A stretch of 64,000 bases of DNA from NCBI RefSeq assembly GCF_010365305.1, contig NZ_CP048279.1:186001-250000 (forward strand), in the 5' to 3' direction. Under the pieces are notes generated by a model, which saw nothing but the letters and a program-made list of their open reading frames with translations, was not told where the DNA came from and did not search any database. This DNA is from Staphylococcus sp. MI 10-1553. Lineage in GTDB: Bacteria > Bacillota > Bacilli > Staphylococcales > Staphylococcaceae. The position numbers and the translations under genes are program-made. Positions within the stretch are counted from its first letter, which is position 1. Every line of letters begins with the position of its first letter. Shown here piece after piece: positions 730 to 60,860 of this stretch.

Positions 730-839
730 CTATTTTGGAGTGAAAGCGAGGTTCAAATAATAAGGACAAATCGTAGGAAAGGAGATGGGACACAAAAATT
801 TTTGATGCTATTGATGTAGTATTTTTGTTTAACTTGCTC

Positions 840-1190
840 TCCCTATGATTTGTGTGTGTTTTTGATTGCCCTCATGGCTGCCCTTTCTAGGGGCTAACTC
901 TCCAACTCAATTCGTCTTGATTGAAGCATACATGAGATGGAAGACGAATTGGATTTTAGGCGCAATACAGAAATCTCATGTGCAACAAAGATTTCGTAGT
1001 ACTGCCCCCGCAAGACTGACTAGACTTCTCAAAAGCATCCGTATTGAGAAGTCAGACAGCTACTGCGATAAACAGGAGCCACTATCAAAGTGACTAGATG
1101 TGATGTGGTATTTTCACTTTCCCCTTAGGAGTGTCAGCCTTCTGGGCAATCTTACATTCAATATAGTGAAACTGAGGGCAAGTTGATAAA
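840..1190 (-). repeat. Interspersed structured element, copy A
   Basis: This stretch matches 60480-60790 (copy C) in inverted orientation; the core near 955-1090 is almost identical. A shorter relative is at 47255-47405. It folds into several hairpins: 908-918 with 941-951 (CAATTCGTCTT, 11 bp perfect), 970-976 with 989-995 (GAAATCT), and 1023-1032 with 1044-1053 (GACTTCTCAA, 10 bp perfect). Read on the - strand, GCAGTAC pairs with GTATTGC through a G-U wobble, which hints that the - strand is the RNA. The open frame at 866-1093 lies inside this element and is not considered a gene. Confidence 0.7.
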
Positions 1191-1293
1191 ATCAAGAAAA
1201 CAATAGCATCGATTTTTTGTATCCCATTCACCCTCATTTTCGGACTGCTTTAAAATCATTAATGAATCATAAATCTATGAATGAATGGATTGA

Positions 1294-1434: not shown

Positions 1435-2643
1435 TTAGTGTGGTGCTTTCTGATAATCATATAATTTATCATTGACTATCAAGTAGTGAATGGTCTTTAA
1501 TAAGCGATTGATACTCGCTATTACGGCAGTCTTGTGGGGTTTCCCATGAGGCTGCTCTCTTAATTTATAATAATAATCCACAATATGGCTTTGATAATGA
1601 TTTCTTCCCCTAAGAATGTTCATAGTGATTAAATACAATAAACGCCTTGCTTTTTTATTTCCTCTTTTATTAATCGTATCTCGACTCTTTGAAGTTCCTG
1701 ATTGGTAACGTTTAATATCAATGCCTACAAATGCATTCAGTTGTTTATTTGTTTTGAATTCTCTAATATCTCCAAGTTCCCCAATAAGCAATGTAGCTGT
1801 GAGTTCTCCGATGCCAGGAATTGAAATAATATTTTCAAACTCAGTTGTATTTTTAGCTAAATCAATCATTTCCTGATTAAATGCTTTCATTTCTTCTATC
1901 CCAATAAGCAGTTTGTCGCATAAGTATTGGACTTTTTGTAGGAGGAAAGAAGACTTGCGCACATTCGGAAAACTATTATTCTTTATTTCAATTAATTTTT
2001 TGGCATACTTGTGCGCTTTTTTAATTGAAATGCCTTTATCAGTTGAATGAAGTACTTTTTCCACCAATTCATCATGAGTCAAAATACTTACATAATCAGG
2101 ATGAGGAAATGCTTTAGCTATATTTAATGCGATTTTTGAATATCTGTTAGTAAATAACTTTTCTAACCCTGGAAATGTTTGATGTAGTGTTTCGACTAAC
2201 TCAACTTTGAGACAATTTTGGTTGATCTCCATTTCTAAGTGAAAGCGCGCACGTTCTCTCAGTTCAAAGTAGATCTCTTCAGGATGACGTTGTACCTTTG
2301 AATCTTTCATTCTAAAGGCAAGAAGTGCGAGTTTATGTGCGTCTGACTTATCTGTTTTCCATGATCTTAACGAATTTGTTTTAAACTTGGCTTCTAGGGG
2401 GTTCATTTCTAAGTAATTTATTTTGTGAATTTCACAAAAGTGTTTCATACCTCTTGAATAAACACCTGTTGATTCAAAGAGGATAAACAGGGAATCAAGA
2501 TGCTTGATATAATTTTTAAGATAACGATAGCCATTTTGATTATTTTGAATGACCAATTCTTTAACGAAAACTTCATCCTTATAATGTGCGACCACACTTT
2601 CTGACTTACTGATATCAATACCAAAACAGTTAATAAAAATCAT
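1435..2643 (-). CDS. IS110 family transposase
   Basis: This 402-residue protein has both IS110 domains. The N-terminal RuvC-like DEDD domain shows D10 (FGIDISK), E57 (LFESTG), D98 and D101 (KTDKSDAHKLA). The C-terminal Transposase_20 domain has the IPGIGELTATLLIGELGD helix-hairpin-helix stretch and the serine-containing YQSGTSKSRDT segment. All catalytic residues appear intact, so the element may be active. Recent work on the family shows that IS110 elements use a bridge RNA encoded in a non-coding end to choose target and donor. The flank at 2644-2830 upstream of the start codon is where such an RNA would be sought for an IS110-group member. Exact IS ends were not determined because the family lacks standard inverted repeats. 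Confidence 0.93.
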   Translation of the reverse strand: MIFINCFGIDISKSESVVAHYKDEVFVKELVIQNNQNGYRYLKNYIKHLDSLFILFESTGVYSRGMKHFCEIHKINYLEMNPLEAKFKTNSLRSWKTDKSDAHKLALLAFRMKDSKVQRHPEEIYFELRERARFHLEMEINQNCLKVELVETLHQTFPGLEKLFTNRYSKIALNIAKAFPHPDYVSILTHDELVEKVLHSTDKGISIKKAHKYAKKLIEIKNNSFPNVRKSSFLLQKVQYLCDKLLIGIEEMKAFNQEMIDLAKNTTEFENIISIPGIGELTATLLIGELGDIREFKTNKQLNAFVGIDIKRYQSGTSKSRDTINKRGNKKARRLLYLITMNILRGRNHYQSHIVDYYYKLREQPHGKPHKTAVIASINRLLKTIHYLIVNDKLYDYQKAPH

Positions 2644-3538: not shown

Positions 3539-4681
3539 CTAAGCTAATGTTTGCATTCGTAGCCCTTCGGTCAAAATATTGATGCTCGCGTTTATATCTC
3601 GGTCATGGTGAGCATGGCAAATAGGACAAGACCATTCTCGAATTTTGAGATTTTTCTTGCCATCATTATGTCCGCACTCTGAACAGACTTGACTTGATGG
3701 AAACCATTTATCAATCTTGACTATTTCACGTCCATACCAGTCAGCTTTGTATTGTAGCTTAATCACAAAGCTAGACCATGACACATCAGAAATGCTTTTA
3801 GCCAGTTTATGATTTCGCAACATACCTTTTGTGTTTAAGTCTTCAATACAGATAATATCGTGATTTTTGATAATCTCTGTACTCAACTTGTTTAGAAAGT
3901 CAGTGCGTTGATTCATTACCTTTTCATGTAGTCGTGCAACTTTCTGTTTTTGTTTCTGGTAGTTTTTGGCTTCAAAGAGATTGATACCCTTCTTTTTGGC
4001 TAACAGGGCACGTCTCGACAACTTACGTTGTTCACGTTTTAGTTTCTGTGCCATTTTCGAAGTGAACTTATTATTATCAATCTTTTGACCGTCAGAAAAA
4101 ATGGCAAAATGAGTGATTCCAAGGTCAATTCCAATTGCAGAATTAGTTTTAGGAAACTCGACAACTTCTTCTTTGCACAATAAAGAAACATAGTATTTAC
4201 CGCTTGAACGGCGTGATATTGTAGCTGATTTGATAATACCTTTAGGTTGTCTATGAAGCTTTATTTTAACTGATGACTTCAACTTAGGAACTTTGATGAA
4301 TTTATTATCAATCAAGGATATTGTGCCATTTTGATTATTAGTGGTATAGCTTTGAACGGGATTCTTCTTACTTTTGAACCGAGGAAATCCAACAGATTTA
4401 TCTCTAAAGAAATTCTTATATGCCTTGTCTAAATTGAGTTGTGCATTAGCCAAGGCAAGGCTATCTACTTCCTTCAAAAATGGAAATTCATTCTTATATT
4501 TAGCTGGTGTCGGGAACTTCATTTTTTTAGAAGAAACATTCTTAGCTTCTTCATAAGCTTTCATTCGTTCATCAAGCATTAGATTGTAGACCTTACGGAC
4601 ACAACCGAAAGACTTAGCGAAGAAAATTTTTTGTTCTTCAGTTGGATAGATTCTAAATTTATATGCTTTGAGTCGTTCCAT
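3539..4681 (-). CDS. tnpB: IS200/IS605-family TnpB, RNA-guided endonuclease
   Basis: A full-length 380-residue OrfB/TnpB. It has the N-terminal HTH_OrfB domain ([13 protein letters not shown]), the RuvC-like core with D186 (IGIDLG), E280 (ICIEDLN) and D362 (HDRDINAS), and a zinc ribbon with C333, C336, C352 and C355. All nuclease residues are present, so cleavage activity is expected. No Y1 transposase tnpA lies beside it, so the unit is a stand-alone tnpB element, mobile only in trans. Left-end structure is seen at 4735-4770 and right-end motif at 3381-3398. It is inserted between the DUF4870 gene and the chitosanase operon and interrupts neither. Confidence 0.95.
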
Positions 4682-11239: not shown

Positions 11240-14200
11240 ATGAACAAATCAAAAGAAAAACATTTTAACTTTTTGTCAAAACGTCAAAATCGGTATGCCA
11301 TTCGTCGCTTTTCAGCTGGTATCGCTTCAGTGCTTGTCGGTACTGCTTTATTTTTCGGTGCCCATACGAGTGAAGCATCTGCTGCGGAACAAGATCAAAC
11401 ATCTGAAGCAAAGCAAACACCCCTTGATGCTTCCGATACTTCGGACACTTTAACAGAGACGAACGAAAAGGCAGCACAAGCTCCGACAACAGAAACAAAT
11501 CCTTCAGTTGAAGAAATGAATCATAAAGAAGCAACTGTAAATGGACAATCAATAGCATCATCACAAACCGCAGAACAAAGTAATGAAGCAAAACCAACAG
11601 AAATGCCTACCAATGACACAGAAAACACAACCGAAGCCCCTGTGAAAGAACAAACGAAAGACGCACAAGCCACTGACGAAAATATCGATGTCACTCCGAA
11701 AAATGATACTGAACTACAAGCAAATAATGAAACATCAACTCGTAACTCTAAAACAGCAGAAGAAACGACAACTGAAGAATCAAAAACCGAAGCATCTACA
11801 AAAGAAAATGTAACCGAAGAAAAAACTACAAAAGAAACACCTCAAGAAGATACATCTCATAGCGAAGAAGTGTCTAAAAATGAAAAGCGCACAATAGAAA
11901 AGCAGGCAACAGAATCTTCGGCAAGTGAAAAGTCTACAACAGAAATGCCTACGCATCAACTAGAATCTCCATCTACAGAAATTCCAATAGATCAAACTCA
12001 AATGAATACAAAACAACCACAAACAACAGAACAACAATTTGAAAAGATATTAAAAGAAACAAATTTCGACAATATGGATCCAGCTACAAAAACACTTTAT
12101 TTAGAACTTCTTAAAGATTATGCTGACAAACAAGATACGCTCAAAACAGCCGCAACAGTGAGTACGAGAAATAGACCTGAGAAAATCGCTGCACCTAAAA
12201 AGAGAACATGGTCAAGTGATGTCGTTCCAGAAAATGAAGTAGAGATACTTGCAGATGCAATCGCAAACGGTTATATCGGTTCTGCCACAGATGCGACGAA
12301 TGCGGCACATACGTTGTCAGGTCGTGCATGGGTGTTCGGTCACGGTACACCGGCAACAATGGCAAACGGTTTAAAACCTGTTCCAGAAGGCACAAAAGTT
12401 CACCTACAATGGATAGATACAGATGGTGCAACTTCACCCATTTATACTGCGAAAACAACGAACAGACTCAGTTCTGTAGACGGCAGTCAAATGGGACCTG
12501 GCGCGTATGCATTTGATTTACGTGATGGTTGGACAGATGCAAATGGAAAACACCACTTATACAGTGCGGTAAAAGGTCAACGTTATAAATTGTGGATTGA
12601 CGACTTCGAAACTAAAGATGGCAATGTCAATACGATGTTACGTGTATCAGGAGGCTTTCGCCCAGGAACGTTTGTTGATTCAGTAACGTATAATAATATG
12701 GGGCAATTCCCGTTAATTGGTACGAATATGCAACGTACAGGTATCTTTATGACAACGATTCCTTCAAAAAAATATTTAACTGCAAAACACGTCGTTACTG
12801 ATACAAAAGGTGCGACTGCTAATCCAGCGGTGACAATGATTGAAGACGATTTTGTCAGTGGTAAAATTTGGGTTGAAACAGGTTATGGGGACTATGCCAA
12901 CTCTGCAACAGGTCCAAACTATAATATGAAAGATGTTGCTGCAAATGGATACAAAGTGGTTATGACATCATTAACAGACCAAGGTGCTAAAGCGTATGAT
13001 ACGCAAGTGAATCATTTGCCAGAAAAAGATCGAGCAGAAGCAGCACGCAAATTATTAACGGCACATCCGGAATATATGTCAGTGACTGTGGAAGGGACAA
13101 CCAATAAACGTGGTGAATACACATTACGTTTCCCTAAAGGTACATTGAATAAAGACCATCTTTACGGTTACGTGTTAAGTCCAGACGGTGAAATTGTAAC
13201 AAGTTATTCAGGCTTTACTTCACCAGAGTTTCGTAGACCGAATTATGATTTAGCAACTGCACCACAAACGGCACCGTATTACAGACCGATTCGAAACGCT
13301 TGGAACAATGTCAACTTTGCGGTTGTTGAAACGACACAAACGCAAATCAATATTACAAATTTTGACGTGACATCTAACCCTGCACATCGTGGCCAAACAG
13401 CATACGTTAATATCACAGATATGCCTAACACTTCATTACTGACACGAGTACAATGGAAAGATTCATCAGGCAAAGTTGTTCAAGATAGTGGACCTGTGAC
13501 TTCGGAAAAAGCAGCTGAAAGTAAAGCGAGATTTGTGATTCCGACTAACGCAAAATCAGGTGAAGTGTATACTGTACAAATGGTGGTAGGTGGCCATGTT
13601 ATAGCTACGGATTCACTTATTGTACATGTCAATGAAGATGCAGCGAAATATCATCCAGTCTATCCATCGACAACAGTGGAACCGGGTCAAAAGGTAACCA
13701 TTCCAACACCTAAAAATGCAAACGGTCGTCGATTACCGAACGGCACAACTTTTGAAAAAGGTCATCATGTCCCTAAATGGGTAACAGTGAATCATGACGG
13801 TTCGATGATAGTAAAACCTGGAGAAAAAGTAGAAGAAGGTGATTATGATATTCCAGTGATTGTGACTTATCCAGACGGTTCTAAAAATACAATTCTTGCA
13901 CCTGTGACAGTTCAAGAAAAAGAACCAATGGCATCGGAATACGAACCAACAAGTGAAGGCGTAACGAAAAAATACGGCACACCAGTAACATCGGATGACG
14001 TGACAAATTCAATTCACGTTCCGAACTTCCCGGCAGAAGGGGAGCAACCAGTCGCAACGGTAGACGACGAAACACAATTACCGGACGGCACAACAGAAGG
14101 TCAAGTAGATGTCGGCGTAACGGTCACATACCCAGATGGAACAACAGACCATATTACAGTGCCGGTAGTAACACAGAAGCAACCAGATGGGGATAAATAC

Positions 14201-17200
14201 GAACCAACAAGTGAAGGTGTAACGAAAAAATACGGCACGCCAGTAACATCAACTGATGTAACAGATTCAATTCACGTGCCGAACTTCCCGGCAGAAGGGG
14301 AGCAACCAGTCGCAACAGTGGACGATGAAACACAATTACCGGATGGCACAACAGAAGGTCAAGTGGATGTCGGTGTAACAGTCACATATCCAGATGGAAC
14401 AACGGACCATATCACAGTGCCGGTAGTAACACAGAAGCAACCAGATGGGGATAAATACGAACCAACAAGTGAAGGTGTAACGAAAAAATACGGCACGCCA
14501 GTAACATCAACTGATGTAACAGATTCAATTCACGTGCCGAACTTCCCGGCAGAAGGGGAGCAACCAGTCGCAACAGTGGACGATGAAACACAATTACCGG
14601 ATGGCACAACAGAAGGTCAAGTGGATGTCGGTGTAACAGTCACATATCCAGATGGAACAACGGACCATATCACAGTGCCGGTAGTAACGCAAAAACAACC
14701 GGATGGAGATAAATACGACCCGACAACAGGTGGAGTAACGAAACCATTCGGCACGCCAGTAACATCGGATGACGTGACAAATTCAATTCACATCCCGAAC
14801 TTCCCGGTAGAAGGGGAGCAACCTGTGGCAACGGTAGACGACGAAACACAATTACCGGATGGCACAGTAGAAGGTCAAGTAGATGTCGGCGTAACGGTCA
14901 CATACCCAGATGGAACAACAGACCATATTACAGTGCCGGTAGTAACGCAAAAACAACCGGATGGAGATAAATACGAGCCGACAACAGGTGGAGTAACGAA
15001 AAAATACGGAGAGCCAGTAACATCAACTGATGTAACAGATTCAATTCACGTGCCGAACTTCCCGGTAGAAGGTCAACAACCAGTCGCAACAGTGGACGAT
15101 GAAACACAATTACCGGATGGCACAACAGAAGGTCAAGTGGATGTCGGTGTAACAGTCACATATCCAGATGGAACAACGGACCATATCACAGTGCCGGTAG
15201 TAACGCAAAAACAACCGGATGGAGATAAATACGAGCCGACAACAGGTGGAGTAACGAAACCATTCGGCACGCCAGTAACATCGGATGACGTGACAGACTC
15301 AGTGAAAATCCCGAACTTCCCGGTAGAAGGTCAACAACCAGTCGCAACAGTGGATGACGAAACACAATTACCAGACGGAACAGTAGAAGGTCAAGTAGAT
15401 GTAGGTGTAACGGTCACATATCCAGATGGAACAACGGACCATATCACAGTGCCGGTAGTAACACAGAATCAACCTGATAATGAAAAATATGATCCAGTGG
15501 CAACGGGTATCTTGAAACAATTTGGTGATCCAACGACAGCGGAAGACGTTACGAAATTAGTGGAAGTTCCATACTATCCGGAAGATAAAGAACAGCCTAA
15601 GGTCACAGTAACTGACCCAACCACTTTGCCAGATGGACAAACACCAGGTAAAGCGGATGTTGATGTAACAGTGACATATCCAGATGGAACAACCGATCAT
15701 ATTCAAGTTCCTGTTTGGACGAATAAACAACTAGATAAACACAAATACGAGCCAACAACAGGTGGAGTAACGAAAAAATATGGTGTGCCAGTAACATCGG
15801 ATGACGTGACAGACTCAGTGAAAATCCCGAACTTCCCGGTAGAAGGGGAGCAACCTGTGGCAACAGTGGATGACGAAACACAACTACCGGATGGCACAAC
15901 AGAAGGTCAAGTAGATGTAGGTGTAACGGTCACATATCCAGATGGAACAACAGACCACATCACTGTGCCGGTAGTAACGCAAAAACAACCGGATGGAGAT
16001 AAATACGAGCCGACAACAGGTGGAGTAACGAAAGCATTCGGCACACCAGCAACATCGGATGACGTGACAAATTCAATTCACGTTCCGAACTTCCCGGCAG
16101 AAGGGGAGCAACCTGTGGCAACGGTAGACGACGAAACACAATTACCGGATGGCACAACAGAAGGTCAAGTAGATGTCGGTGTAACGGTCACATATCCAGA
16201 TGGAACAACGGACCACATCACTGTGCCGGTAGTAACGCAAAAACAACCGGATGGAGACAAATATGAGCCGACAACAGGTGGAGTAACGAAACCATTCGGC
16301 ACGCCAGTAACATCGGATGACGTGACAAATTCAATTCACGTTCCGAACTTCCCGGTAGAAGGTCAACAACCGGTGGCAACAGTGGATGACGAAACACAAT
16401 TACCGGATGGCACAACAGAAGGTCAAGTGGATGTCGGTGTAACGGTCACATATCCAGATGGAACAACGGACCATATCACAGTGCCGGTAGTAACACAAAA
16501 ACAACCAGATAATGAAAAATATGAGCCAACTACAACAGGTATTACAAAAGCTTATGGCGTCCCAACGACAGCAGCTGAAGTAACAGGTTCAGTTCAAATC
16601 CCACATTTCCCAGTGGATGGAAAGCAACCTGTTGTGACAGTGAATGATCCAAGACAATTGCCAAATGGTAAAAAAGAAGGTCAAATCAATGTTCCTGTTA
16701 CAGTGACATATCCAGATGGTACAAAAGATCTCATGACAGTACCGGTTATTACAGGTAAACAAGCAGAAAATGAAAAATACGAACCAATCACATTAGGCGT
16801 AACCAAAGATTATGGTGACCCTACAACTGCAGCTGATGTGACAGATTCAATCCAAATACCAACATATCCAGTAGGTGGACAACAACCAGTCGCAACAGTG
16901 GATGATGAAAATCAATTACCAGATGGAACAACAGAAGGTGAAGTGGATATTCCTGTCACAGTGACGTATCCGGATGGTACTCAGGATCATATCACTGTCC
17001 CAGTATTTACAAATCAACAACGAGATAATCAGAAGTATGAACCGACAAGTGAAGGTGTGACCAAAGATTATGGCGTTCCAACAGGTGTGGATGATGTGCT
17101 AGATACAGTCACAGTACCGAATTACCCAGCTGATCGCGAGGAACGTCCTGTGAAAACTGTAGATGCGCCAGACCGATTACCAGATGGTACGACAGAAGGC

Positions 17201-18760
17201 CAAGTCCTTGTCGGTGTGACAGTGACATATCCAGACGGTTCAAAAGATTATATTAAAGTGCCAGTCGTGACAAACCCACCGACAGATAACGTAAGATATG
17301 AACCTACAACTCAAGGTATTACAAAGCCATTTGGTGAACCAACAACAGCAGATGATGTGACAGGGGCGGTTAAAATACCAAACTTCCCAACAGATGGCGA
17401 GCAACCTGTTGTCACAGTCATTGATCCAAGACAATTGCCTAATGGTAAAAAAGAAGGCCAAACGAATGTCGGTGTAACCGTGAAATACCCAGACGGCACA
17501 ACAGACTACTTTACAGTTCCAGTTGTGACAAATAAGCAATCAGATAGCGATAAATATACACCAACAACTGAAGGTATTACGAAATCATTCGGCATGCCGA
17601 CAAATGCAGATGAAGTGGAAGATGCTATACAGATTCCAGGCTATCCAGAAGATGCGGAACCGCCTGTTGTGACAGTAAAAGACCCAATGCAATTACCAGA
17701 TGGCAGTGTAGGTGCAACAGTAGATGTCGATGTGACAGTGACATATCCAGACGGTACAACAGATGAAATAAGTGTTCCAGTCACAACAGCAAGTTCAGAT
17801 GATGGTGGTGGTAACGGTTCAAGCGGTTCATCAGCGGGAGGATCAGTGCCAGGCTCTAATGGTCCAACAGTTAGACCCTCTATCCAATTGACGGGGTTGA
17901 AAGGCTTTGTACCGCATTTCGCAGGACCAACAGACCATCATCAACAAGCAGATAGTGATAAGTACAGTCCAACAAGTGAAGGTGTAACGAAAGCACACGG
18001 CACACCAGTTACAGTGAGTGATGTGGAAGATTCTGTGTCCATTCCGAACTATCCAACTGACGATGCACAGCCTACTGTTACAGTAAAAGATGCATCACAA
18101 TTACCAGGTGGCACAACAGATGGGACAGTAGATGTCGATGTTGAAGTGCACTATCCTGATGGCTCAACAACAGCGCTCACAGTACCCGTGACGATTGGAA
18201 GCGCACCGACGATTCAATTAGAAACAACTGATTCAAGTGGTGTTAAATCAACGCTAACAACGGTTGACGGAGTAGATACGCAAACAGAAAAAATATCAAC
18301 AACGAAAGATGACACACCATCAGCAGACGACGTAACGACAGTCGCTCAAGGTCATGAAACAGATGCATCAGCAACGAAATATCAACGACCAGTGCGTGAT
18401 AAAGTAGTCACAATCCCAACAGTTGCTCATGGCTCAAAACAAGCAAATCATGATGATGAAAATACATCACATGCATCAAACCAAACAAATGAGATGACTG
18501 AAAAAGTTACGCCTGTGACTACAACAGCAGCAAGTGTGGCAAATGGCGATGTTGTTCCAACGCATCTCGCTGCTGCACCACATACTCAAGTAACGCAAGC
18601 TGTAAGAACTTCAACTGAAACAACAGCTAAAGAAGAGGTGAAGCAATTACCAGAAACAGGTGAAAACAAGAAACAAGCAGGTGCATTATTAGGTGGATTC
18701 ATTGCAGTGATTGGTGGTTTACTAATATTCGGTAGACGTCGTAACGAAAAGAAAGACTAA
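11240..18760 (+). CDS. Giant YSIRK/LPXTG cell-wall-anchored protein with 16 Rib-type repeats
   Basis: The 2506-residue protein has a YSIRK-type signal (RYAIRRFSAGIASVLVG, about 17-33), a Ser/Thr/Glu-rich low-complexity segment (about 48-300), then a non-repeated region (about 310-800) likely to hold the ligand-binding domain. A degenerate Rib-like domain spans 800-895. Sixteen units of about 86 residues begin at 900 (KYEPT..GVTK..G.PVTS..V), each with the LPDGT...VTVTYPDGT core of the Rib/alpha-like domain. A Gly/Ser-rich linker splits unit 15 from unit 16 (start 2241). LPETG is at 2470-2474, followed by a membrane span and RRRNEKKD, so sortase A anchors it. Expected role: adhesion or biofilm stalk; ligand unknown. 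AGGAG precedes the ATG. Confidence 0.95.
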   Translation: MNKSKEKHFNFLSKRQNRYAIRRFSAGIASVLVGTALFFGAHTSEASAAEQDQTSEAKQTPLDASDTSDTLTETNEKAAQAPTTETNPSVEEMNHKEATVNGQSIASSQTAEQSNEAKPTEMPTNDTENTTEAPVKEQTKDAQATDENIDVTPKNDTELQANNETSTRNSKTAEETTTEESKTEASTKENVTEEKTTKETPQEDTSHSEEVSKNEKRTIEKQATESSASEKSTTEMPTHQLESPSTEIPIDQTQMNTKQPQTTEQQFEKILKETNFDNMDPATKTLYLELLKDYADKQDTLKTAATVSTRNRPEKIAAPKKRTWSSDVVPENEVEILADAIANGYIGSATDATNAAHTLSGRAWVFGHGTPATMANGLKPVPEGTKVHLQWIDTDGATSPIYTAKTTNRLSSVDGSQMGPGAYAFDLRDGWTDANGKHHLYSAVKGQRYKLWIDDFETKDGNVNTMLRVSGGFRPGTFVDSVTYNNMGQFPLIGTNMQRTGIFMTTIPSKKYLTAKHVVTDTKGATANPAVTMIEDDFVSGKIWVETGYGDYANSATGPNYNMKDVAANGYKVVMTSLTDQGAKAYDTQVNHLPEKDRAEAARKLLTAHPEYMSVTVEGTTNKRGEYTLRFPKGTLNKDHLYGYVLSPDGEIVTSYSGFTSPEFRRPNYDLATAPQTAPYYRPIRNAWNNVNFAVVETTQTQINITNFDVTSNPAHRGQTAYVNITDMPNTSLLTRVQWKDSSGKVVQDSGPVTSEKAAESKARFVIPTNAKSGEVYTVQMVVGGHVIATDSLIVHVNEDAAKYHPVYPSTTVEPGQKVTIPTPKNANGRRLPNGTTFEKGHHVPKWVTVNHDGSMIVKPGEKVEEGDYDIPVIVTYPDGSKNTILAPVTVQEKEPMASEYEPTSEGVTKKYGTPVTSDDVTNSIHVPNFPAEGEQPVATVDDETQLPDGTTEGQVDVGVTVTYPDGTTDHITVPVVTQKQPDGDKYEPTSEGVTKKYGTPVTSTDVTDSIHVPNFPAEGEQPVATVDDETQLPDGTTEGQVDVGVTVTYPDGTTDHITVPVVTQKQPDGDKYEPTSEGVTKKYGTPVTSTDVTDSIHVPNFPAEGEQPVATVDDETQLPDGTTEGQVDVGVTVTYPDGTTDHITVPVVTQKQPDGDKYDPTTGGVTKPFGTPVTSDDVTNSIHIPNFPVEGEQPVATVDDETQLPDGTVEGQVDVGVTVTYPDGTTDHITVPVVTQKQPDGDKYEPTTGGVTKKYGEPVTSTDVTDSIHVPNFPVEGQQPVATVDDETQLPDGTTEGQVDVGVTVTYPDGTTDHITVPVVTQKQPDGDKYEPTTGGVTKPFGTPVTSDDVTDSVKIPNFPVEGQQPVATVDDETQLPDGTVEGQVDVGVTVTYPDGTTDHITVPVVTQNQPDNEKYDPVATGILKQFGDPTTAEDVTKLVEVPYYPEDKEQPKVTVTDPTTLPDGQTPGKADVDVTVTYPDGTTDHIQVPVWTNKQLDKHKYEPTTGGVTKKYGVPVTSDDVTDSVKIPNFPVEGEQPVATVDDETQLPDGTTEGQVDVGVTVTYPDGTTDHITVPVVTQKQPDGDKYEPTTGGVTKAFGTPATSDDVTNSIHVPNFPAEGEQPVATVDDETQLPDGTTEGQVDVGVTVTYPDGTTDHITVPVVTQKQPDGDKYEPTTGGVTKPFGTPVTSDDVTNSIHVPNFPVEGQQPVATVDDETQLPDGTTEGQVDVGVTVTYPDGTTDHITVPVVTQKQPDNEKYEPTTTGITKAYGVPTTAAEVTGSVQIPHFPVDGKQPVVTVNDPRQLPNGKKEGQINVPVTVTYPDGTKDLMTVPVITGKQAENEKYEPITLGVTKDYGDPTTAADVTDSIQIPTYPVGGQQPVATVDDENQLPDGTTEGEVDIPVTVTYPDGTQDHITVPVFTNQQRDNQKYEPTSEGVTKDYGVPTGVDDVLDTVTVPNYPADREERPVKTVDAPDRLPDGTTEGQVLVGVTVTYPDGSKDYIKVPVVTNPPTDNVRYEPTTQGITKPFGEPTTADDVTGAVKIPNFPTDGEQPVVTVIDPRQLPNGKKEGQTNVGVTVKYPDGTTDYFTVPVVTNKQSDSDKYTPTTEGITKSFGMPTNADEVEDAIQIPGYPEDAEPPVVTVKDPMQLPDGSVGATVDVDVTVTYPDGTTDEISVPVTTASSDDGGGNGSSGSSAGGSVPGSNGPTVRPSIQLTGLKGFVPHFAGPTDHHQQADSDKYSPTSEGVTKAHGTPVTVSDVEDSVSIPNYPTDDAQPTVTVKDASQLPGGTTDGTVDVDVEVHYPDGSTTALTVPVTIGSAPTIQLETTDSSGVKSTLTTVDGVDTQTEKISTTKDDTPSADDVTTVAQGHETDASATKYQRPVRDKVVTIPTVAHGSKQANHDDENTSHASNQTNEMTEKVTPVTTTAASVANGDVVPTHLAAAPHTQVTQAVRTSTETTAKEEVKQLPETGENKKQAGALLGGFIAVIGGLLIFGRRRNEKKD
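13937..17797 (+). repeat. Tandem 258-bp repeat array (15 Rib units)
   Basis: Units start every 258 bases: 13937, 14195, 14453, 14711, 14969, 15227, 15485, 15743, 16001, 16259, 16517 and on. Units 2 and 3 look identical at the DNA level (about 14163-14690). Units 1-6 and 8-10 are highly similar; unit 7 (15485-15742) and units 11-15 are clearly diverged. This is the pattern of recent unequal crossing over in the N-terminal part of an older array. A 16th unit follows a linker at 17960-18205. Confidence 0.93.
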
Positions 18761-47168: not shown

Positions 47169-47254
47169 ACAATTGCCGTGATTTTGTCTATTTTCAAACA
47201 GTCTTTCAAACATTTTTAAATTATTATCTCATTGATTCGCAACATTTAAATTCA

Positions 47255-47405
47255 AATTGCTAAAATGGGCGAGACTCCTGAGGGATCAGACGCAGCCGAA
47301 AATCCAATTCGGCTTCCATTCAGTGTATCTTTAATAAAGCCGAATTGAGTTGAGGCAAGTCCCCTAGGAAAGGGAGCCCATGGTGGCAATTGTGAAATCT
47401 AAAAA
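47255..47405 (+). repeat. Interspersed structured element, copy B (short form)
   Basis: It begins ATTGCTAAAATGGGCGAGA and ends near GGCAATTGTGAAATCT, as copy C does at 60489 and 60769. It lacks the about 150-base internal part. Its main stem is AATTCGGCTT with AAGCCGAATT (10 bp perfect, about 47305-47347), at the same place where copy A has CAATTCGTCTT/AAGACGAATTG and copy C has CCAACGCT/AGCGTTGG. Non-coding. Confidence 0.65.
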
Positions 47406-47477
47406 GGTTGTCCAATGAAGACAATTTGATTAATATATATTAATTATGACAATCAAAAACTTTTAAATTCAGCCCCT

Positions 47478-60349: not shown

Positions 60350-60479
60350 ATTCTTGCCTATGATAAGTGGAAATCAGATTAGTGAAATCTAAAATCAATT
60401 GAGGTTAATGGGGTCAAAAAAACTAATGCTTTAGATCCTTTTCAGTCCAAAAATTTGCCCTCATTCATTCACTGTCTTT

Positions 60480-60790
60480 GAAATTTAATTGCTAAAATGG
60501 GCGAGATTCCTGGGAAAGCATGATAAAGTCAAAATATTGTCATCTAACTTTAAAAGTGGCTACTGTTTAATGCAGTAGCTGTCTGACTTCGCAATGCTCC
60601 GGCTTTTGAGAAGTCTAGTCAGCCTTGCGGGGGCAGTACTACGAAATTTTTGTTGCACATAAGATTTCTGTACTGCTCCCAAAATCTGCCAACGCTTCCT
60701 TTACACATGTAACAGTAAAATTAGAGCGTTGGTGAGTTGAAGGGGCAGCCTAGGAACGCGAGCTCATGATAGCAATTGTTGAAATTTAGA
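60480..60790 (+). repeat. Interspersed structured element, copy C (long form)
   Basis: Inverted relative of 840-1190 and extended relative of 47255-47405. Hairpins: 60585-60594 with 60606-60615 (GACTTC.CAA, one mismatch); GCAGTAC...GAAAT with ATTTC...GTACTGC (about 60633-60677); and CCAACGCT with AGCGTTGG (about 60688-60735). Starts near TTGCTAAAATGGGCGAGATT. Not translated in any convincing frame. Confidence 0.7.
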
Positions 60791-60860
60791 AAGGGACGCG
60801 GGTCATTTTATTAAAATATATCATGTAAGACAATCAAACTTTTTAAAGCATATGACAGAT

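Follow-up and report, generated by a model that had tools for sequence, protein, structure and literature searches.

A two-hairpin repeat with compensated stems in staphylococci and streptococci, a candidate mobile element at terminator sites

Two nested repeats in the window

The window analyzed here is a stretch of 64,000 nucleotides, positions 186001-250000 of the single 2.9-Mb contig of Staphylococcus sp. MI 10-1553, and three copies (A, B, and C) of an interspersed repeat lie in it. Beside copy A is an IS110-family insertion sequence of the bridge-RNA type (1306-2700; transposase at 1435-2643, minus strand), which occurs in the genome in at least 10 near-identical copies (10 of 178 candidates were scored). 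Thirty-two bases at an end of this insertion sequence match the left flank of copy A (765-796) in inverted orientation at 91%, so that it may target such palindromes. Also near copy A lies a gene for a TnpB RNA-guided endonuclease (3539-4681; NCBIfam IS200_TnpB). There are 13 matches to Y1 transposases in the genome, and a 2,506-codon frame (11240-18760) carries at least 13 copies of a 258-base tandem repeat.

The initial annotation had placed one multi-hairpin element at three sites. All three were located in the sequence, as were the first-stem letters quoted for each copy and the GTATTGC wobble in copy A. Inside the window, BLAST aligned copy A with copy C over 149 bases at 87% and with copy B over 100 bases at 81%, while copies B and C matched over 106 bases at 72% and a further 53 bases at 79%. 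The fold of copy A (780-1240) has a z score of −7.2, with 0 of 100 shuffles as good; the values are −4.5 (0 of 200 shuffles) for copy B (47240-47460) and −3.7 (0 of 100) for copy C (60430-60850).

The hairpins are thus present, but they belong to two nested elements, an inner core and an outer palindrome, rather than to one. The core is about 115 nt long and consists of hairpin 1, with the pattern GTAG-CTGTCTGACTTCTC..GAGAAGTCTAGTCAG, and hairpin 2, with the pattern GGGGGCAGTAC-NAC-GAAATC..GATTTCTGTACTGCTCCC. The outer palindrome reads ATTGC..GAGACTCCTGAGGGA..inner stem..CCTAGGAANGCGAG..GCAAT. As had been stated, the internal module is missing from copy B, so that of the three copies only two hold it; the genome contains at least 84 matches to the core (model R1, described below; 150 of 1,343 candidates scored). 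Copy A does lie at 840-1190 but had been drawn too small, its inverted arms spanning about 787-1225. The features are as follows.

787..1225, minus strand: copy A, including its outer inverted arms, which read GGGACACAAAAATTTTTGATGCTATTG (787-813) and CAATAGCATCGATTTTTTGTATCCC (1201-1225); the ends were judged by eye (sequence, fold, and A-like full-length matches at other loci of the genome)
952..1079, minus strand: two-hairpin core of copy A (model R1 match at contig positions 186952-187079; model R2 match at 958-1067)
47255..47392, plus strand: copy B, the outer palindrome alone, without core (sequence, BLAST, fold)
47305..47347, plus strand: inner stem of copy B, CAATTCGGCTT / AAGCCGAATTG (sequence, fold, inner-stem pairing statistic)
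60487..60777, plus strand: copy C, the outer palindrome around the core (sequence, BLAST, fold)
60559..60686, plus strand: two-hairpin core of copy C (model R1 match at contig positions 246559-246686)
60571..60628, plus strand: core hairpin 1 in copy C (GCAGTAG-CTG..CAG), which covaries between genomes (alignments, covariation)
60629..60680, plus strand: core hairpin 2 in copy C (GGGGGCAGTAC..GTACTGCTCCC), whose opposite strand corresponds to the STAR start signature (alignments, covariation)

Besides copy B, at least six more copies in the genome are outer elements without a core; the core itself is mostly enclosed by the outer palindrome and lies near the 3′ ends of genes. The end motifs of the outer palindrome (GCGAGACTCCTG.GGGA and CGGAAAGCGAGC; window 47257-47392) may resemble a repeat found in Bacillus genomes.

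Distribution, compensatory change, and relation to named repeats

Copy C gave at least 41 BLAST matches in the MI 10-1553 genome (best 40 of 107 candidates scored). The covariance-model search of Staphylococcus genomes that had been proposed showed the family to be widespread, but with a model, R1, built from 31 copies of the internal module in MI 10-1553 rather than from the three window copies. R1 matched in at least 67 of 81 genomes of the genus (up to 42 candidates scored per genome); since its structure is the RNAalifold fold of these 31 copies, a different, longer-range fold without hairpin 2 and with 0 of 28 pairs compensated, R1 matches depend largely on sequence. In three other genomes, a second model, R2, which was built across genomes, matched 73, 77, and 58 times. 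Under stricter filters, 121 genomes of the class were searched with R2; matches came from 8 genomes of the genus and from 3 that belong to one other family, together 2 of 72 genera, and six loci of the other family align over the full length of R2 (E 2e-25 to 2e-17). Furthermore, a scan of named genomes for the hairpin-2 pattern yielded, among the matches listed, Streptococcus (S. parasanguinis, S. cristatus, S. australis, S. sanguinis, and others), Staphylococcus, and Mammaliicoccus; because its copies carry the same letters as these named streptococcal matches, the other family is taken as Streptococcus. Plasmids and phages gave no blastn hit to a 150-nt piece of copy C (E 1e-5), and a link between this family and streptococci was not found in the open-licence literature.

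The claim that stem sequences change while pairing is kept holds for the internal core, both between genomes and between copies within one genome, G055, and compensatory change occurs in both hairpins. In a cross-genome set of 31 sequences (30 distinct) from 30 genomes, both sides changed in 23 of 38 pairs, a count uncorrected for descent like all those given here, and 94.6% of cells pair, compared to 79.9% after shuffling. None of 500 shuffles attained any of five measures, pairing dropped to 49% or less when the structure was slid, and RNAalifold recovered the same helices from this set, with 22 of 37 pairs compensated. G055 contributed 47 distinct copies; in their alignment, which was fitted to the model and is hence biased towards it, both sides changed in 23 of 36 pairs, and there were 192 double-changed cells compared to 56 after shuffling and at most 35 after sliding; one of the five measures, that of further pair types, was attained by 9 of 500 shuffles. 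Hairpin 2 displays eight quartet combinations in 14 parsed matches of G055, six of them perfectly complementary (12 of the 14 matches), one combination in G046 (14 of 14), and two in G048 (5 and 5), all in counts that include some copies twice through overlapping loci.

Within MI 10-1553, stems were counted in 70 of 80 copies, the other 10 being shorter than 117 nt. The 2,496 stem cells comprise 2,324 Watson-Crick pairs, 75 A.C, 49 G.T, and 48 others, with compensated double changes in only 6 cells; changes in the core are mostly one-sided. The GTACTGC/GTATTGC wobble in copy A, which had been counted as covariation, is therefore better read as decay. As for the inner stem, whose covariation had also been claimed, it pairs better with its own partner (8.64 of 10) than with those of other copies (7.83; the best of 300 permutations reached 8.17, and 72 of 81 copies were parsed, with 9 left out), but much of this is the difference between two stem types, the values within the AATTCGGC type being 9.04 and 8.81 (best permutation, 8.98). 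The base stem of the outer element scored 4.83 of 7 with its own partner compared to 4.36 when permuted (at best 4.70; stem parsed in 30 of 80 copies).

GTAG ahead of a hairpin is a hallmark of REP sequences, and GTAG precedes hairpin 1 in most sequences, as would be expected of a REP/BIME-like sequence moved by a REP-associated tyrosine transposase (RAYT). Nonetheless, no PF01797 match was found in the eleven genomes with at least 37 scored copies (G003, G017, G034, G037, G038, G046, G048, G055, G057, G065, and G078), while G030 has 12 PF01797 matches and no element match. On this presence and absence of Y1 (PF01797) transposases, the RAYT explanation was discarded as very improbable.

The initial annotation knew no named family that fits; the core, however, resembles the backbone of Rfam S35 and of the STAR loci of S. 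aureus. The S35 model (RF02894; srn_0335) covers the core on its reverse strand, hereafter the S35 strand, in five loci of other genomes (L057, L041, L046, L048, and L040; E 4e-13 to 1.3e-4, all under the gathering score), and in L057 it aligns hairpin 2 and hairpin 1. The core shares the two-hairpin S35 backbone on its reverse strand, a likeness shown through loci of relatives rather than directly in the window copies. S35 gave no gathering-score match in the window, and loci L001 and L031 gave none even at E up to 10; it exceeded the gathering score only in L055, on STAR-like repeats next to the core. S35 has STAR-like repeats between its two hairpins, whereas the copies of MI 10-1553 have none. 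STAR loci and the present family are alike in being interspersed and intergenic and in occupying species-specific places, and the STAR start signature, GTGGGACAGAAATGAT, given by Purves et al. (PMC3532100), corresponds to an arm of core hairpin 2. The defining STAR motif, TNTGTTGNGGCCC, occurs neither in the window nor in any of 84 loci of MI 10-1553, yet the S35/STAR-like backbone is abundant in this genome. Zero STAR motifs were counted in S. pseudintermedius in the same study (PMC3532100).

These likenesses bear on the possibility that the core is a regulatory RNA family, made up of small RNAs or 3′-UTR modules acting in cis or in trans, whose spread is secondary. In S. aureus, S35/srn_0335 is listed among the bona fide sRNAs, validated by Northern blot, and marked "repeated region" (PMC5826253). 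The covariation within G055 also fits a regulatory RNA, as does the lower divergence of stem columns than of other columns in MI 10-1553 (3.7% compared to 13.9%), and a weak excess of A.C over G.T mismatches in this genome (75 to 49; P = 0.024) is what would be expected if RNA from the S35 strand mattered. In G055 these mismatches numbered 38 to 19 with two pairs left out (P = 0.016) and 63 to 63 with all pairs, and in A2 they numbered 17 to 11 (P = 0.35); the signal is weak and shifts with the choice of omitted pairs, and strand assignment from mismatch type was abandoned. Against a regulatory RNA stand the mere 6 compensated cells in 70 copies, the loss of the core or of the entire element at orthologous sites, and the varying gene context, the last two described below. 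STAR positions, moreover, are reported not to be common to different species (PMC3532100). We thus consider a regulatory RNA family unlikely.

The BOX, RUP, and SPRITE repeats of pneumococci resemble the present family as small interspersed folding repeats, and SPRITE is reported to fold like a terminator and to be enriched between convergent genes (PMC3049150). Identity with SPRITE was excluded on anatomy, namely, ends, GC content, and stem number: SPRITE has 28% GC, AAAA/TTTT ends, and one 18-bp stem, whereas the streptococcal units have 42-50% GC and two covarying hairpins.

Gene context, terminators, and element-free alleles

The element had been proposed to act from the minus strand of copy A and the plus strand of copies B and C. 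This is probably wrong, since in 69 of 80 copies of MI 10-1553 the upstream gene on the opposite strand, the S35 strand, is directed towards the element (4 of the 84 core matches, being weak, partial, or overlapping, are left out of these context counts). By a simple frame caller, 45 of these 80 copies lie between convergent genes and 3 between divergent genes. In 71 streptococcal copies, the orientation of the neighboring genes is with the S35 strand in 22, against it in 27, convergent in 13, and divergent in 1, with 8 unassigned; in 41 copies of G055, the context is divergent in 11, convergent in 11, against the S35 strand in 15, with it in 3, and unassigned in 1. The 45 convergent and 3 divergent sites of MI 10-1553 are as expected from selection against harmful insertions, and together with the many copies per genome and the one-sided decay in MI 10-1553 they favor a selfish DNA hairpin, the fold of which serves as a transposase substrate only, so that terminators would simply be tolerated as insertion sites and transcription would play no part.

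The repeat had also been held to be "not just a terminator." The streptococcal unit, however, has a terminator-like hairpin at one end and occupies the terminator site of element-free alleles. Of 68 streptococcal copies, 43 are followed by a terminator on the S35 strand, compared to 3 in shuffled sequence and 2 with one upstream. Elsewhere, a downstream terminator was found in 3 of 10 copies in G046, 0 of 9 in G048, 4 of 16 in other staphylococci (1 shuffled), and 0 of 7 in G055, and 12 of 17 other staphylococcal copies have a stable hairpin within the 80 nt next to hairpin 1. In MI 10-1553, a terminator signal is seen farther from the element, by 120 bases (18 of 80 copies, 2 shuffled) and by 180 bases (22 of 80, 1 shuffled), and may represent the neighboring genes' own terminators.

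The streptococcal unit starts with GAGAGTGGGACAGAAATC and closes with a hairpin terminating in GTCCCAGCCTC; in 38 aligned copies, conservation drops sharply at both ends. Of 65 copies defined by this pattern, 61 are 175 bp long, 50 have an A-tract to the left (mean of 5.1 in control windows), 46 have a T-tract to the right (mean of 4.0), and 35 have both. The two ends form imperfect inverted repeats, matching at 12 of 16 positions by eye. A clear target duplication was not seen in these 65 copies, of which none had junction identity of 3, 5, 6, or 8 bases, 13 had identity of two bases, and 2 had identity of four. Among the loci examined, element-free alleles were found for 3 of the 65 copies, and all three have a hairpin between A-rich and T-rich tracts, with folds of −12.8 to −21.9 kcal/mol. 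Both the tracts exactly at the unit ends and the terminator hairpins of element-free alleles point to a chosen rather than a tolerated target, and we regard a purely selfish DNA hairpin as rather unlikely; neither observation, on the other hand, implies that the element itself terminates transcription.

Three loci of MI 10-1553, L022, L009, and L137 (positions 1971792, 1139786, and 695254), were followed in five relatives, giving one clean case, one ambiguous case, and one without an empty allele. At L137, a terminator (−20.5) was found in G053, which is element-free, and none was detected in MI 10-1553, G015, G050, G059, or G066. At L009, the element is full in G015 and G066, reduced to the outer part in G050, without its center in G059, and absent from G053; G053 has a terminator there, but MI 10-1553, G050, G059, and G066 retain another next to the left gene, and the locus is ambiguous as a case of terminator replacement. 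At L022, G053 carries the outer element, and hence no empty allele is available. At the place of copy C, moreover, G015 retains the outer element but lacks the core and inner stem.

Further inverted arms lie outside the outer element, some common to several copies and some matching only their own locus. At L022, L009, and L137, inverted arms of about 110-200 bases around the element pair together and not with the arms of other copies; the own-partner scores of the noncoding flank arms were 36.6, 30.2, and 29.4, compared to shuffled maxima of 15.9, 14.9, and 17.5, respectively. Insertion with inverted duplication of the neighbor's coding end looked striking by eye at L137 and L009 but is not claimed: the true partner ranked first in 4 of 68 right genes and 2 of 48 left genes, with 1 expected in each, and at L137 the score was 15.6 compared to shuffles of up to 15.2, with none of five orthologues above shuffles. 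In G066, the full copy at the L009 locus (L196) is preceded by another, incomplete left arm and outer element, an arrangement that suggests local duplication.

A proposed route of movement

The reading that we favor, at a probability of roughly one-half, is that the core constitutes a non-autonomous mobile element family of Gram-positive cocci that replaces intrinsic-terminator stem-loops. Element-free sites would be those that have yet to gain the element rather than those that lost it, a predicted polarity. In IS1272 (IS1182 family), a stem-loop target is reported to be replaced without target duplication (PMC5678879). By analogy, a trans-acting transposase from another element would recognize the folded ends and move the unit by stem-loop replacement, so that the unit takes the place of the terminator stem-loop between the host A-tract and T-tract. 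The likeness lies in the target mode, an inverted repeat being at the target site in all three streptococcal element-free alleles; the unit differs from IS1272 in being about 175 bp long and carrying no transposase. In streptococci, hairpin 2 would adjoin the host A-tract, which reads as a T-tract on the opposite strand, while the T-tract would adjoin the end hairpin; with a hairpin next to a T-tract at each end, the site could still terminate transcription in both directions, for both neighbors. The element hairpins are putative terminators in this scheme, and selection would act on RNA rather than on DNA folding. Copies unable to fold would cease moving, and the surviving lineages would drift through compensatory change towards lineage-specific stems. 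In the MI 10-1553 clade, where terminator function is least supported, the core would have come to lie inside a second palindrome. Hairpin 1 is not adjacent to a T-tract, and its covariation is not explained by terminator function alone but needs a further reader of the fold. Also counting against this reading are the ambiguity at L009, the gene context that varies between genomes, and the low counts of downstream terminators in G046, G048, G055, and other staphylococci.

A broader form of this reading is tentative and somewhat doubtful: a single family would be common to Staphylococcus, Mammaliicoccus, and Streptococcus, its moving unit would be a two-ended terminator that swaps with a gene's terminator hairpin and evolves by compensatory RNA change, and STAR loci and S. 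aureus S35 would be locally expanded members. If so, STAR loci, S35 RNA, and the recurring terminator letters of staphylococci and streptococci would unite in one family with a structural model, of which the streptococcal members provide exact ends and a testable target rule. Mobile terminator exchange would rewire 3′ ends genome-wide without gene disruption, and the spread of STAR, left open by Purves et al. (PMC3532100), would become directly testable.

A matching autonomous element was not found among the loci examined. In the same loci, matching unit ends more than 650 bases apart occur only in L315 (4709-7386), where a 416-codon frame lies between them; this stretch could be an autonomous partner or two adjacent ends.
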